Under the pieces are notes generated by a model. That model worked only from the letters and a program-made list of their open reading frames with translations. It made no database searches and was not told the DNA's origin. A DNA stretch of 34,506 nt from Aminivibrio sp. (GTDB lineage: Bacteria > Synergistota > Synergistia > Synergistales > Aminobacteriaceae), in contig NZ_JAESIH010000048.1 of assembly GCF_016756745.1 (NCBI RefSeq), positions 13,805-48,310 on the forward strand. The letters run 5' to 3'. Of this stretch, positions 72-6,068 are shown piece after piece (position 1 is the first letter of the stretch; each line of letters opens with the position of its first letter). A program made the position numbers and the translations under genes.

Positions 72-3000
72 CTACCTCAAAAAGTCCACCAGGGTAGGCT
101 GGACGATCTTGGCAATGACGGCCAGGCTTGACTGGTAGACGGCCTGGGCCATGGCGAACTTGGTGCTGGTTTCGGCCATGTCGATGTCCGAGACCTTGCT
201 GTACAGATCGGTGATGTAGATGTTGTTCTGCTTGAAGCGGGCCTGGTTGTTCTGGTATCGATTGAGCAGCGCCCCCTGGGAGGTGCGGCACTTGAGCAGG
301 GTGTCGATGAACTGGTCGATCTGGCCGAGCATGATGTTGCTCAGGCCTTCCCTGTCCTCCGCCTTGACGGAGTTGACCAGGTTGTCCAGCACGCCGAAGA
401 AGTCCGTTTTCCGGTTGTCGGAGGCCGTCCGGACCACCACGTTCTGGTTGTACCGCGCCGAGGGGGACCCGGCGCGGGAGGGCATGGCCGTGACGGTGCC
501 GGTGAGGGCGCCCTGAGCGCTGCCGCTGACTTCGACGGAGTATCCCCGGGGGGAGGAGAGCACCAGGTAGCGGGCTCCCCCGTCGTCCGCGATGGCGGCC
601 TTGACGTCCCGGCCCTGGAAGCGGGCGTTGACTGCGGCGGCTACGTCCTCGATGTCGATGGCGCCGGAGTCGTTGCTGTCGAAGATGGCGTTCAGGTCGA
701 TTGTGTGGGAGTACCCGTCCACCGAGATGGTGAGCAGGTCGCCCGCCGCGGGCGCCCAGGCGGAGACGTCCGCGTCGCCCCGGAGGGCGTTGTCCGTCTG
801 CAGGACCGCCGAGGCCGCGTCCCCTTCCACGTCGTACATGGAGATCGGGGAGCCGTCACGGGCGGCGATGCTGATCAGGGCGTTCGATCCCGCCGCGGGA
901 AGCTCGGGGTCGAAGTAGTTCACGTCGAGCCAGCTTCCGGCCGCGCTTCGGATCTTGTCGGCGATGATTTTCGGCGTATCTCCGGCGGATACGGCCACGT
1001 CCACGGTCCGGCCGAAGGATTCGATGCGGATGGTGCCCGCGCCCGAAGTGCTGTCGTCCGGGATGGGGGCGCTGGTGATCCCTGAGGATATGCCCATCTG
1101 CACGGCCATGCCGGCGGTGTAGGACGGCGAGAATGATGGGTCGGAGATGGGGAGGTCCACTATCCGGAGGGATTCCCCGTTTTTGGCGTAGAGGGAGACC
1201 CGGCCCGCCGCCCCGTCGAGGACGGTGTACCCGAGGAGTTCTTCCCCCGCCGCATCGTTGACCTGCGTCACGATCTGTTCCATGACCTTCGCCTGGTCCA
1301 CCTTGGGGGGCGTGGATGACATGATGTCGTCGGGATAGAGCTTCACGGTGAAGTCTTCGCCCCCCACGGTGACCCGGACGAGGGCCGCCATGTTGGGGTC
1401 CACGCAGGGGATGGAGGGGAAGACGGTGTCGACGCCGGTGTCGTTCCTGCTCTGGACTGCCGTGGAAAAGCCCAGGTCCAGGGCGTATCCTGCGGTGTTC
1501 TTGTCGAAGACCACCAGGGGTTCGTTGGCCGTGGGGCGGAGGATGAGGCGCCTGGTCAGTTCCTCCAGGCTGCCGGAGGTGCCGAGGCCGGCTTCGGCGT
1601 GGTCTTCCTGCACCACCACTTCGAGCCAGTTGCCCGCCACCTGGCGGATGCGCTCCGCAAGTTCGTCGATGGTGAGGTTGACGCCGCCGTTGATCTTGAG
1701 TTCGGCTGAGTTCCGGCCGCTTTCGAACCGGAGGTGGAGGTCGTTCCCTATGGGGATGAGCTCCCCGTCGCCGAACTGGCGGCTCTTGAGGGAGGTTTCC
1801 ATGCCGATGAGGGAGGCAAAGTCGATGTGGCTGTGGTCCACGGGGCGCTCCTCTTCCGCCGATGTCACGGTAACCGTATCCTCGGCGGAAGAGGAGAAGA
1901 GTTCCCTGGCGGCCCCGGTAAGTTCCATGCTGAACTGCTTTCCCGGATCGGCGGCCGTGACGACGAGCCTGTCGCCGTCGGCGGAGACCCGGGCGGCGAT
2001 ACCGAGAACGGTGGTGAGTTTGCCCGCTATGGTGTCCAGGGTGTCCGTTCCGTCGACGGTAAAGGTGACGTCCTCGCCCTGCTGGAAGAACACCCGGATG
2101 GTACCGTCGGCGGGAGTCCACGCCGATGCGTCGAGGCCGAGGATGGTCTGGGGCTCCGGCACCCGGTCGGTGTCGGGCCACCCGGTCACCTGGATGGGTT
2201 CTCCCGTGTGGCTGGTGAAGACGAGCCGCTGGGTTCCGGCGTTCATGTCCTTCTCCACCGAGACGGAGAGCAGGCGGTCGGCGTCCCCCATGTTCAGGCT
2301 CTCGTTGATCAGCTCGGCGATCCGGTCGAGGGTGAGGCCGTTGAGTTCGCCGGAGTCACGGAACCGGTTGTAGTCGGTAAGGTCGTCGATGCCGTTGATG
2401 TTTTCGTCGGTCCAGTCTTCCGAGAGGCGGACCTTGACGCTCCGGCTGCCTACGGAGATCTGGAGAATTTCGTCCCGGCCCGTCCAGGCGAAGTCGAGGG
2501 GGATCTCCACGCTGGTGAGGGTGTTGGAGGCGTACTCCACCGGGAAGACCTCCCTCCCGTGGAAGGACACGTCGCCGATGACGCCCTTTTCCATTTCGTA
2601 GCTTACCTTGCCGGTGTTGCCGCTGTAGACGACATTTCCGGAGGCGTCCCGCTCGAAGGGGCGGACGCCGGTGGACAGGCCGGAGAGAAGGTACCTGCCC
2701 TCCACGGAGTAGTTGGCCGTGTTGCGGAGCTCTTCCTGGAGTTCGCTGATTTCCGCCGCGATGGCTTCGGTCTCGCCCGGACCGAGGGCGCCGTTGCCGG
2801 CATAGATGGTGAGCTCCCTGATGCGGTGGGCGATGTCCATCATCTGGTTGAAGGCCGTGTCGGTATTGGAGAGCCACGCGATGGCGTCGTCCTGGTTGCG
2901 GATGTACTGGCCGTTTTCCAGTATGGAGGTCTGGAGGGAAAGCTCCCGGACCACGTCTATGGGGTTGTCCGACGGGCGGGAATGCTTCTTGCCCGTGGCG

Positions 3001-3092
3001 AGCTGGTGCTGGTATTCGAGCAGCCGGGACAGGTTGTTGTGCATGTCCGACAGCATAAGGTTCTGGATCATGGGGTTGCTGACGCGCTGCAT
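72..3092 (-). CDS. flgL: Flagellar hook-filament junction protein FlgL, very large form
   Basis: FlgL (HAP3) joins the hook to the filament outside the cell. This one has 1006 residues against about 300 in well-known FlgL proteins. The flagellin-like N-terminal part (about 1-180, with LATGKKHSRPSDNP and LSNTDTAFNQMMDIA) and C-terminal helix (about 890-1006, ending NNIYITDLYSKVSDIDMAE...) are intact; the extra length is a central insert of about 700 residues built from roughly six diverged beta-rich modules, most with an IDxIAxxIN-like segment. Two loops in it look like EF-hands. The ATG at 3092 is chosen because GGGGAGGG sits 6 bases upstream and because family homology starts there; the frame stays open to 3179, inside flgK. 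flgK ends 13 bases upstream. Last gene of its operon. Confidence 0.93.
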   Translation of the reverse strand: MQRVSNPMIQNLMLSDMHNNLSRLLEYQHQLATGKKHSRPSDNPIDVVRELSLQTSILENGQYIRNQDDAIAWLSNTDTAFNQMMDIAHRIRELTIYAGNGALGPGETEAIAAEISELQEELRNTANYSVEGRYLLSGLSTGVRPFERDASGNVVYSGNTGKVSYEMEKGVIGDVSFHGREVFPVEYASNTLTSVEIPLDFAWTGRDEILQISVGSRSVKVRLSEDWTDENINGIDDLTDYNRFRDSGELNGLTLDRIAELINESLNMGDADRLLSVSVEKDMNAGTQRLVFTSHTGEPIQVTGWPDTDRVPEPQTILGLDASAWTPADGTIRVFFQQGEDVTFTVDGTDTLDTIAGKLTTVLGIAARVSADGDRLVVTAADPGKQFSMELTGAARELFSSSAEDTVTVTSAEEERPVDHSHIDFASLIGMETSLKSRQFGDGELIPIGNDLHLRFESGRNSAELKINGGVNLTIDELAERIRQVAGNWLEVVVQEDHAEAGLGTSGSLEELTRRLILRPTANEPLVVFDKNTAGYALDLGFSTAVQSRNDTGVDTVFPSIPCVDPNMAALVRVTVGGEDFTVKLYPDDIMSSTPPKVDQAKVMEQIVTQVNDAAGEELLGYTVLDGAAGRVSLYAKNGESLRIVDLPISDPSFSPSYTAGMAVQMGISSGITSAPIPDDSTSGAGTIRIESFGRTVDVAVSAGDTPKIIADKIRSAAGSWLDVNYFDPELPAAGSNALISIAARDGSPISMYDVEGDAASAVLQTDNALRGDADVSAWAPAAGDLLTISVDGYSHTIDLNAIFDSNDSGAIDIEDVAAAVNARFQGRDVKAAIADDGGARYLVLSSPRGYSVEVSGSAQGALTGTVTAMPSRAGSPSARYNQNVVVRTASDNRKTDFFGVLDNLVNSVKAEDREGLSNIMLGQIDQFIDTLLKCRTSQGALLNRYQNNQARFKQNNIYITDLYSKVSDIDMAETSTKFAMAQAVYQSSLAVIAKIVQPTLVDFLR

Positions 3093-3105: not shown

Positions 3106-5598
3106 CTAGCGGCCCACGATGCCCATGCCGTTGATGATCCGGTCGAGCATCTCGTCCACGGTGGTGATGTACCTGGCAATGGCGTTGAAGGCCTGCTGGA
3201 ACTTGATGATGTCCATCATCTCTTCGTCGATGTTGACCCCCATGACCGACTGGCGCTGGTTGTTGATCTGGTTGATGAGGGCGTTCTGGTTTTTCAGCAT
3301 GGTGTTCGCCCGGTCGCCCTGGGCGCCGAGGCTCGCGATGAAGGACTCGTAGAACTCGTTGAAATCAGCGCTTCGGCCCTGGAGGACCTTGGTCTGCTTG
3401 AGCCGGGCCATGCGGAGGGCGTTGCTGCCGTCCCCGGAGCCGTTGGAGAAGCCGTGCCCGTCGCCCGATGCGGCGGCGATGAGGCTGCGGTCCTCGTCGA
3501 TCGCCCTGTTGATTTCAAGCAGCCGGCTTGCGCCGTACTGGACCGCTATGGGGTTGAAGTAGGCTGTTCCTGTGGTCGTTTCGCTCTCGCCCACTCCGTA
3601 GCCGCCGTAGTGAAGGGCGTTCATCTCCTTGACGAGGCCGTAGGCCATTTCGTCCAGGACGTCGAGGAAATCGAGGATGATGTCGTCCCGGGCCTCGAGG
3701 GCACCCCTGACGGCCCCTCCCTTGACGTGGTGGCGCACGGTGATGTCCGATTCGCCCACGGCCCGAAGTTCCATCCGTATGCCGGGAGAGACTTCCTCGA
3801 GGGTGCCCGCGGAGTAGTCGTTCAGGACGGGAACCCTTCGGGCGTTCCGCACCATGTTGCTCTCGGAAAGATAGAGCCTGCCGTCGAAGGTGAAGGCGGC
3901 GTCCCGGGCATATTCCCTGTAGTTCGTGCTGCCGTCGCCGTTGAGGAAGCCGAGGCGCTTCGCGATCTGGAGGCTGCCGTTTTTGTCCCCGAGGACGTTG
4001 ATGCGGTGGGCTTCGCCTGCCGCATTGCTTTCGAGGGTCAGGAAGTAGGTGTTGGTGGCGTCGTCGAGCTCGATGGACGCATGGAGCCAGTTCTCGGGCC
4101 TGGAGAGGCCGTTTGAGCCGTCGGAAAAGGCGCTGTTGATCTTGTTCTTTATGGTCTCCAGGGTATCCTCCTCCACCACTTCGATGGAAACGGAAGGAGC
4201 GGAGTTTTCCATGCCGAGGGCCGACACGAGGCCGCCCTTGGTGTCCGTTATGGAGAGAAGGTGGTTCAGGGCGCTGGAAAAGGTCATCTGGGTGCCCGCG
4301 CCGTTGAGGGTGACGCTGATCTCGCCGCCGAAACTTGTGGTAAGGAACCCCCGGAGGTCGGTGAGGGTAAGGTCGGAGGCGGCGGACGACGCGGTATTGA
4401 CGCCGTCGGAGAGATCCCACGTACCGGTTCCGGTGTTCCACGTCACGGAGATTTCTCGTTCGAAGGATCCGGCGGACACCCTGAAGGAGTGGCTTTCCCC
4501 GGGAATGCCGGCGGGGAGGGCTGTGCCCCCGGTCAGAACGGAGGAGACGGACCTGGTGCCCTGGCTTCCCACCTGGAGGGTGAAGGTGCCCCTGAGGTTG
4601 AGGGCCTCCGTCATGGTCTCGGGCTTGATCCGGTCGGGGCAGGCGGACTCGCCGTAGCCCACGGACCAGGCGGATTCGGAGGCGAGCCGCCGGACGTTCA
4701 CCGTGTGGATGGCCTCGGGCGCCCCCTGCTCGAGAGTGGCGAAGAGCACCGACGGGTCGGAGACGTGGTCGAAGAGGTTGTCCTCCACCTGCACGTCGAA
4801 GAAGCCGGTGTTTCCCGCCACGGGAACGGCGACAAGATGCCTGGTCTGGTCGCCCTGGACGAGGAGCTTGCCGCCGAGGTCGATTTTGAATTCCCCGTCC
4901 CCTTCGAGGCAGGGAGGATTTACCGTGATGTCGATGAGTTTCGAGAGCTTGTCCACCAGCAGGTCCCGCTTGTCCATGAGGTCGTTGGGGTTGCCCCCCA
5001 CGCCCTGGACCTGCTTTATGGTGGTGTTGATGCCGGCGATCTGGTCGATGAGGGTGTTGGCATCGTCCACCATGAGTTTTATGTCCCTGTTGAGGGCGGT
5101 GCGGTATTCGTCGTAGTTCCTGACGAGCTGGCCGAGGTAGACGGTGAGGTTCTTGGTCTTTTCCACCATGTCCTCCCGGACGGCGGAGTCGTCGGGCCTC
5201 TTGCTGAGTTCCTGGAGGCTCGACCAGTACGTGTCCAGGGCGGTTTTCAGTCCCTCCCCAGCAGGTTCGTTGACGTAGACTTCCACCGTGGAAAGGGCGT
5301 TCTGGATCTGTTCCCAGTATCCCTGGACGGTCATTTCTTCCCTGTACTGGATGTCGAGAAAGGCGTCCCGGAGGCGGACGATGGCGTCGATCTGCACGCC
5401 CGTGCCGACCTGCCCCGGAATGTCGGGCCTGTTGAAGGCCGGGTTGGCGAAGGGACTCGTGGTGGACGCCTCGACCCGCTGGCGGGAGTATCCCTCCACG
5501 TCGGCGTTGGAGATGTTGTGCCCGGCCGTTTCCATGCCGCGGCGGAAATAGTCCATGGCACGCCGTCCCATTTCAAGTCCGAAGAGACTGTTCCACAT
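3106..5598 (-). CDS. flgK: Flagellar hook-associated protein FlgK
   Basis: FlgK (HAP1) is the first junction protein placed on the hook tip. The start MWNSLFGLEMGRRAMDYF and the rod/hook-family motif GHNISNADVEGYSRQRV (about 26-42) identify it, and the C-terminal helix (about 765-830, with NIDEEMMDIIKFQQAFNAIARY) is the usual D0 region. At 830 residues it is longer than the common 450-650; the middle (about 330-560) carries beta-rich inserts, including one IN-motif-like segment (TLETIKNKINSAF). The ATG at 5598 has AGGAGG 10 bases upstream, and this ribosome site overlaps the flgN stop codon (TAGGAGG), which points to translational coupling. Confidence 0.95.
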   Translation of the reverse strand: MWNSLFGLEMGRRAMDYFRRGMETAGHNISNADVEGYSRQRVEASTTSPFANPAFNRPDIPGQVGTGVQIDAIVRLRDAFLDIQYREEMTVQGYWEQIQNALSTVEVYVNEPAGEGLKTALDTYWSSLQELSKRPDDSAVREDMVEKTKNLTVYLGQLVRNYDEYRTALNRDIKLMVDDANTLIDQIAGINTTIKQVQGVGGNPNDLMDKRDLLVDKLSKLIDITVNPPCLEGDGEFKIDLGGKLLVQGDQTRHLVAVPVAGNTGFFDVQVEDNLFDHVSDPSVLFATLEQGAPEAIHTVNVRRLASESAWSVGYGESACPDRIKPETMTEALNLRGTFTLQVGSQGTRSVSSVLTGGTALPAGIPGESHSFRVSAGSFEREISVTWNTGTGTWDLSDGVNTASSAASDLTLTDLRGFLTTSFGGEISVTLNGAGTQMTFSSALNHLLSITDTKGGLVSALGMENSAPSVSIEVVEEDTLETIKNKINSAFSDGSNGLSRPENWLHASIELDDATNTYFLTLESNAAGEAHRINVLGDKNGSLQIAKRLGFLNGDGSTNYREYARDAAFTFDGRLYLSESNMVRNARRVPVLNDYSAGTLEEVSPGIRMELRAVGESDITVRHHVKGGAVRGALEARDDIILDFLDVLDEMAYGLVKEMNALHYGGYGVGESETTTGTAYFNPIAVQYGASRLLEINRAIDEDRSLIAAASGDGHGFSNGSGDGSNALRMARLKQTKVLQGRSADFNEFYESFIASLGAQGDRANTMLKNQNALINQINNQRQSVMGVNIDEEMMDIIKFQQAFNAIARYITTVDEMLDRIINGMGIVGR

Positions 5599-5612: not shown

Positions 5613-6068
5613 CTAACCCCGAAAATCCACTCCCGGCCGGGAGGGGTATATTCCCTGAAGCCGTCTCCATTCGGCGATCATCATGCCGCCGAGGCGCTGG
5701 TTTTCATCCACAAGGCCCGCCAGAATCTGCATCTCCGACTGGAGCTTCCGGACGACGAGCTCCAACCCGGCGGCTGTTTGTTTCAGGGAGGCCGCGTCGT
5801 CCCCCCGGAGGCGTTCACAGATGGAGGAAACCTTGGGCTCGCAGCCGAGCTGGGCGGCCAGTTCCGACGCCATTTTGCCCCTCTGGTTTTCGAGGGCTTC
5901 GGCGGAAAAGCCGAGGTTCTGCAGCTCCCGGAAGAGGTCCTGTAATAATTCGAGGCGCCCGTTCTGGAGCGCCTCTCGTTGCTGTACGGTGACATCCGCA
6001 AGAGCCCGCAGCGTTTCTGCCTGCCGGGCAAGCACGGCGCCCAGGGCAGCGGGAGAAGCCACCGTCAT
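5613..6068 (-). CDS. flgN: FlgN-type flagellar export chaperone
   Basis: A 151-residue, mostly helical, charged protein without signal peptide. FlgN family proteins bind the C-termini of FlgK and FlgL in the cytoplasm and deliver them to the flagellar export gate; the position directly before flgK and after flgM is the usual one. Long helices are visible at about 8-60 and 90-135. The ATG at 6068 overlaps the flgM stop as ATGA, but AGGAGG is only 1 base from it; the GTG at 6062 (149 residues) has a 7-base spacing and may be the real start. Sequence conservation in this family is low, so the call leans on size, helix content and context. Confidence 0.82.
   Translation of the reverse strand: MTVASPAALGAVLARQAETLRALADVTVQQREALQNGRLELLQDLFRELQNLGFSAEALENQRGKMASELAAQLGCEPKVSSICERLRGDDAASLKQTAAGLELVVRKLQSEMQILAGLVDENQRLGGMMIAEWRRLQGIYPSRPGVDFRG

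Follow-up and report, generated by a model that had tools for sequence, protein, structure and literature searches.

The window, the whole stretch of 34,506 nucleotides that was analysed, carries the flagellar genes flgN, flgK and flgL in that order on its minus strand, and the last of these encodes a giant junction protein. The features are listed below, where modules U1 to U6 were each delimited by profile self-comparison, comparison of unit pairs, an AlphaFold2 model and an outgroup profile.

72..3092, minus strand: flgL, giant hook-filament junction protein, 1006 aa (TIGR02550, 236.6 bits against a cut-off of 127.2; frame and start)
2538..3092, minus strand: FlgL N-terminal D0/D1 core, residues 1-185 (Flagellin_N; long helices in the AlphaFold2 model)
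2151..2525, minus strand: module U1, residues 190-314
2346..2414, minus strand: U1 loop, residues 227-249, a possible metal site proposed from the 62-row FlgL alignment
1812..2150, minus strand: module U2, residues 315-427, helix 352-360
1449..1811, minus strand: module U3, residues 428-548, helix 475-486
1098..1448, minus strand: module U4, residues 549-665, helix 600-615
777..1097, minus strand: module U5, residues 666-772, helix 707-718
447..776, minus strand: module U6, residues 773-882, helix 814-824
645..680, minus strand: EF-hand-like acidic loop DSNDSGAIDIED in U6, residues 805-816, before the helix (strict pattern)
75..431, minus strand: FlgL C-terminal D1/D0 core, residues 888-1006 (Flagellin_C; model helices)
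3106..5598, minus strand: flgK, first junction protein, 830 aa (TIGR02492, 331.5 bits)
4126..4164, minus strand: IN-like helix TLETIKNKINSAF in FlgK, residues 479-491 (position; weak module match)
5613..6068, minus strand: flgN, export chaperone gene (PF05130, 42.5 bits against a cut-off of 30.5)

The flgL frame is unbroken, with an ATG at 3092, 13 bases past the flgK stop, and its own stop at 72-74. The TIGR02550 (FlgL) match to the protein is split into two stretches, the better one at residues 3-185, and the termini match Flagellin_N at residues 5-141 (2e-21) and Flagellin_C at residues 924-1005 (1e-6), which bears out the claim of the first-pass annotation that the FlgL ends are intact and flagellin-like. 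Solved FlgL structures are the top VIA rows for the FlgL model, with Z scores of 20-24. Three named loci match the protein. Two belong to metagenome genomes of Synergistaceae, at 92% and 72% identity, and the third to a distant Eubacterium (31%); the order sampled here is presumably Synergistales. An assembly or frameshift artefact was ruled out, since the flgL frame has no interruption and its organisation recurs in 61 complete FlgLs of the order. The annotation had placed an insert at 504-2504, and its conversion of these positions to residues 197-863 is right, but the insert is actually wider, occupying approximately residues 186-887, or about 700 residues between the flagellin-like ends.

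A profile of the insert was built from an alignment of 62 FlgLs of the order (61 complete and one cut at its 5′ end), which were gathered by a six-frame search followed by fetching of the region; starts were set at the nearest methionine, and a few rows (e.g. L011 and L081) may therefore miss N-terminal residues. Comparison of the insert profile with itself in hhalign resulted in off-diagonal scores of 203, 168 and 123, with the register held over up to 378 columns, far above the maximum of 27.7 over 30 column-shuffled profiles; the reversed profile reached 35.7. When the units were compared with each other, all 30 ordered pairs scored at least 21.0, whereas 180 shuffled comparisons peaked at 19.0. 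U3-U5 is the highest-scoring pair (107-116), and U1-U5, U5-U6, U3-U6 and U2-U4 barely exceed the shuffled maximum. The five helix segments quoted in the first-pass annotation were located at residues 253-266, 352-364, 473-487, 707-719 and 814-826, and a sixth that it had left unquoted, VDQAKVMEQIVTQVNDAAG, lies at residues 598-616 in unit 4. AlphaFold2, run with the 62-row alignment (mean pLDDT 83.8, pTM 0.74), predicted six like units. Every unit follows the order strand-strand-helix-strand-strand-strand, which reproduces the secondary-structure order read from the letters; in U1 the elements are strands 208-214 and 217-223, helix 255-264, and strands 275-282, 287-294 and 300-306. These results confirm that the insert repeats one small fold in diverged form, in the order usually six times, as the annotation's roughly six diverged beta-modules had anticipated.

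Five genomes from the same phylum but outside the order encode FlgLs of 402-404 aa (L050-L054) with one outer module. These proteins match TIGR02550 over the full length, 1-387, and their outer part, judged from its letters, has two strand-like stretches, a helix-like stretch and further strand-like stretches, with IADRIN within the helix-like stretch of four of the five. A profile of this outgroup module matched the giant insert at six separate places, exactly U1-U6, with scores of 37-61 (U4 lowest, at 37-38), while the next-best score was 12.3 and 100 shuffles gave at most 24.9. The unit HMMs run against the five outgroup FlgLs returned one weak match each, of 9-14 bits. Ordinary FlgL, as represented by TIGR02550 and these five proteins, shares its ends and the position of the module with the protein in the window, but has one module where the latter has six.

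The fold search with an isolated unit was made with U5, which when predicted alone kept the same elements at a pLDDT of 88.2. Its best VIA matches were to domain D2 of FliD, from E. coli (5h5w; Z 10.6 over 102 residues, 3.6 A), C. jejuni (10.2) and P. aeruginosa (9.4), followed by a Vibrio flagellin (9.1) and C. jejuni FlgK (8.8), and FliD entries make up 15 of the first 17 rows (Z 7.3-10.6). Foldseek with U5 also placed the same FliDs first, yet weakly, with E 1e-3 at best. A profile of 83 module sequences searched against solved structures matched C. jejuni FliD at E values of 6e-9 and 1e-8 and H. pylori FliD at 4e-5; designed proteins equal P. aeruginosa FliD in E value (0.0017), and only the first three FliD rows are clear. 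Kinship with ubiquitin or NEDD8 was set aside, because the likeness covers one hairpin and helix (~30 residues), with poly-ubiquitin chains highest, and reflects a shared small fold. Phage tail proteins (phiTE, Mu and T7-like) also match U5 at Z 4-7, mostly below the FliD rows, and may indicate just a widespread arrangement or a broader family built on the U5-type fold.

The Flagellin_IN motif is commonly present as repeats, and the repetition of that type found here comprises six units. Flagellin_IN scored 15.2 bits on the window FlgL at residues 340-383 (U2), which is under the Pfam cut-off of 22.7. Matches at E up to 1 were obtained in 24 of 32 relatives (best 9e-16), and among the ten relatives detailed, three had matches above the cut-off, in U2 once and in U6 twice, with up to 41.7 bits. 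Weaker matches among these ten fall in U1, U2, U5 and U6, with a single relative lacking any match. Because the window FlgL itself scores under the cut-off, assignment to the IN family is drawn from its relatives and the fold. Taken with the self-comparison, the Pfam matches in relatives, the predicted fold and the likeness to FliD D2 support the proposed resemblance to the flagellin IN motif, and with it the identification of the FlgL units as IN-motif modules like the one that makes up D2 in the FliD cap. The D2 domain of FliD (HAP2; PF07196) has the same module by the predicted fold of U5 and by sequence profile. FliD of the same genome, a cap protein, carries two such modules, whereas the junction protein FlgL carries six in series.

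Across the phylum, 185 genomes were searched with TIGR02550, of which 131 matched, 110 of them above the cut-off. All 61 complete FlgLs of the order that we examined, from part of the matching genomes, span 886-1397 aa and hold at least five of the six modules, compared with 402-404 aa in the five proteins from outside the order. A census of the 61 with per-unit profiles found five units without U2 in three proteins (L019, L080 and L088), exactly six units in all 28 FlgLs of 966-1054 aa, and U1-U6, mostly plus extra material, in the other 30. All six positions are kept in order in 58 of the 61 and none has gone back to one module, with the number of modules in the order varying from 5 to about 8. 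Where tested, the extra material is modular: one clade has two units between U1 and U2, a second has two extra units between U2 and U3, and in a third the U5-U6 pair is repeated (169.6 to U5 and 135.0 to U6), these scores for extra modules having been obtained without a shuffle control. Gain of modules solely in pairs was not upheld, since three lineages gained two each, yet counts of five and seven exist. A tree built from the FlgL ends recovers the order as one group (support 100), and the architectures, labelled by hand from the census and the extra-module comparison, need at least 10 changes, with U2 lost twice. Fourteen shorter frames of the order were re-examined, and 13 of them reach a contig end by frame length and coordinates. 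The fourteenth, the FlgL frame of G095, is broken, and its two pieces hold U1-U6 and both ends; the TIGR02550-matching frames of G004, G020 and G033 lie at contig ends.

The first-pass annotation had also called the size of the protein unusual. This holds against the Salmonella FlgL of 317 aa, with "unusual" relative to all bacteria judged from family-model lengths and the literature. It does not hold within the order, where such a size is the norm, and for Campylobacter FlgLs of 750-950 aa are already in print according to the accessible portion of one report (PMC5691160). Among the best matches in literature searched largely outside subscription journals, we found no paper on the giant FlgL of the order.

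We considered the age of the modules with a tree of 79 columns that included eight six-module FlgLs out of the 62, together with the outgroup module and modules of FliD. Each position from U1 to U6 forms its own group, with a support of 71 for U5 and 89-99 for the others, and the tree requires 8 label changes, the least possible. U3 pairs with U5 (93) and U1 with U4 (89). The grouping by position indicates that the six are older than the separation of these lineages and were not homogenised, and we suggest that all six modules were probably in place before the sampled lineages diverged. Internal duplication within FlgL would be the simplest reading of where the copies came from. The outgroup module scores 72 with a FliD module against 60 at best with a FlgL module, and the module tree gives no supported link of the FlgL modules to either the outgroup or the FliD modules; a module may have been recruited from FliD into FlgL.

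Conservation was calculated for 32 collinear FlgLs of the 62 rows (483 pairs), with the long forms left out. Mean pairwise identity is 43% in the insert and 56% in the ends, and by unit it falls from U1 (52%), the best conserved, through U3 (44%), U5 (44%), U4 (41%) and U6 (40%) to U2 (34%), the most variable module. Compared with six relatives, the insert has a dN/dS of 0.145-0.247, with single units up to 0.37 and with an insert dS that exceeds 1 for four of these relatives, and the core values are 0.095-0.158 for the N-terminal part and 0.094-0.237 for the C-terminal part. We conclude that the insert evolves faster than the ends, yet is not hypervariable and is under purifying selection, which speaks against a fast-changing antigen. 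As to the altered junction stiffness or adhesion that the annotation had proposed, the same constraint leans toward a structural role for the insert.

Two acidic loops lie before the helices of U1 and U6. In the U1 loop, W227, D229, D240 and E249 show no change in any of the 62 rows, and the loop is a possible metal site. The U6 loop follows a strict EF-hand-like pattern that occurs in 22 of the 62 FlgLs of the order (19 in U6 and three in U1) against 1.4% of shuffled sequences, a comparison that ignores kinship, and many FlgLs of the order are without the U6 acidic loop. The EF-hand_5 family is listed for seven of 32 members, with a best E of 8e-4. Calcium binding by the U6 loop may be suggested from this pattern.

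The reading that we prefer, with a probability of roughly 0.55, is that this is an ordinary FlgL whose single D2 IN domain became six before the sampled members of the order diverged, and that the modules form a structural collar and not a variable antigen. FlgN serves FlgK and FlgL in other bacteria, and here FlgL would be exported unfolded with FlgN. The D0/D1 ends would form the usual ring of 11 subunits between FlgK and flagellin, and the six modules of each subunit would stick out to surround the junction with a thick collar, ~66 small domains in all, for a mass of some 73.5 kDa per subunit and ~0.8 MDa in total. Such a collar could pack against its neighbours, FlgK and the first flagellin layer, would thereby stiffen and shield the joint of the flexible hook with the rigid filament, and might shape the seat where the FliD cap starts. 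As far as the accessible text of one study goes, 11 FlgL subunits per junction with an exposed D2 are described in Salmonella and C. jejuni, and for C. jejuni the proposal is made that the bulky D2 of this protein obstructs a FliD domain at the cap, or constrains the cap (PMC12221982). Because of that proposal, an effect of the collar on cap start is plausible in the order by analogy. No fixed collar geometry would be required, since module number varies and U2 was lost twice. A more specific version, in which the ~66 IN modules form a metal-stabilised collar and the U1 and U6 loops lock the chain to the D1 core in the presence of calcium after export, leaving the junction soft during secretion and rigid outside, appears quite improbable to us.

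Neutral expansion would account for the same array if D2 was duplicated by recombination and export tolerated the result, with the modules kept mainly since partial loss misfolds the protein. The variable number of modules and the double loss of U2 on the tree agree with such a history, as do gains that differ in place by lineage (between U1 and U2, between U2 and U3, or as a repeated U5-U6 pair), but the retention of all six positions in order by 58 of the 61 complete FlgLs, with none of the 61 reverted to one, and the four U1 loop residues invariant in every row argue otherwise, and we regard it as somewhat unlikely. We think it unlikely that the modules serve as an adhesin or binding surface, showing many beta-domains to hosts, other cells or substrates. 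The insert is large and would be surface-exposed, and both the EF-hand-like loops and the sialic-acid-like sugar locus by the flagellin gene are compatible with a surface role; against this, the insert is conserved across the 32 collinear FlgLs with a whole-insert dN/dS below 0.25, and the best fold matches of U5, the unit searched alone, are flagellar cap and filament domains.

It could also be that FlgL grew to fit an enlarged partner, either a thick outer layer of flagellin or a bigger FlgK. FlgL and FlgK lengths correlate with a Spearman coefficient of 0.87 (n=60), or 0.83 inside the order (n=55), where the FlgK lengths mostly come from open frames and may be overestimated, and the genome's own flagellin has 773 aa. 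When kinship was allowed for, however, coupled growth of FlgK and FlgL came down to only two well-supported independent pairs, one each way. Flagellin frames already reach 761-841 aa in four of the five genomes whose FlgL has one module, on which basis growth of FlgL driven by growth of flagellin was rejected; the fifth genome (G040) has flagellin frames of 412 and 293 aa, which may be cut. We therefore judge an enlarged partner to be a very unlikely cause of the insert. Flagellin-like frames of 247-259 aa were also seen alongside the 761-841 aa flagellin frames at four loci outside the order (L205, L207, L208 and L211).

A small adaptor is the common picture of FlgL, and in this order the greater part of the protein by mass is a conserved outer array. 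A large FlgL as such is known; what is new is a chain of IN modules, usually six, that is both old and conserved. Campylobacter FlgL (PDB 9gsx), likewise a junction protein with an enlarged exposed D2, is the top Foldseek match of the whole model (E 2e-15), but it is smaller than the FlgL in the window, and the VIA superposition spans 292 residues, roughly what the two ends amount to. At E up to 10 the module profile gave no match to the C. jejuni FlgL chain among solved structures, and the enlargement of that protein may thus consist of other domains. Giant flagellins are a further parallel from the flagellin family, with an internally duplicated outer domain, and differ in being the filament protein and in carrying two copies of another region in place of six modules; as described in the accessible text, these giants have duplicated DE regions, Synergistetes are among the phyla named, and FlgL sequences were filtered out of the survey (PMC6248924). 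It was asked there, again in the accessible text, whether duplicated outer domains are separate beads or split domains (PMC6248924). The prediction that U5 folds alone bears on that question and favours discrete beads over split domains. The natural series from one module outside the order to between five and about eight inside also offers a way to probe the role of the exposed part of the junction.

FlgK, which had been said to contain a shorter version of the IN motif, does have the IN-like helix with a module match of 9.8 bits, and similarly weak matches were found in 28 of 29 FlgK loci scanned (9-21.5 bits). FlgK frames of ~990-1040 aa occur at L145-L149, L151 and L152, mostly with a long FlgL, and part of these proteins weakly resembles U3 (40.0) and U6 (34.6) in a comparison made without a shuffle control; they may have gained IN modules too. 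Tandem flgK-like genes lie beside a long flgL in six genomes (G147, G150, G158, G162, G163 and G164; same order, one family), and a second flgK-like copy is partly visible in G144 and G157.

The same contig carries, outside the window, fliW, a gene of the Pfam MptE-like family, the 773-aa flagellin gene and genes of a sialic-acid-like sugar pathway. The MptE-like gene beside flagellin presumably encodes a Maf-like protein. Genes for NeuB, a UDP-GlcNAc 2-epimerase, a DegT aminotransferase and a dehydratase adjoin the flagellin and MptE-like genes (L157:790-5228), and on their annotation they likely form a sialic-acid-like flagellin glycosylation locus. Still outside the window, between flgL and fliW (L157:12897-13533), we also found a gene with a nucleotidyltransferase domain (52.1 bits) and another that weakly resembles HepT (21.2 bits, under its cut-off of 23.5); the two are perhaps a HepT-MNT toxin-antitoxin pair.
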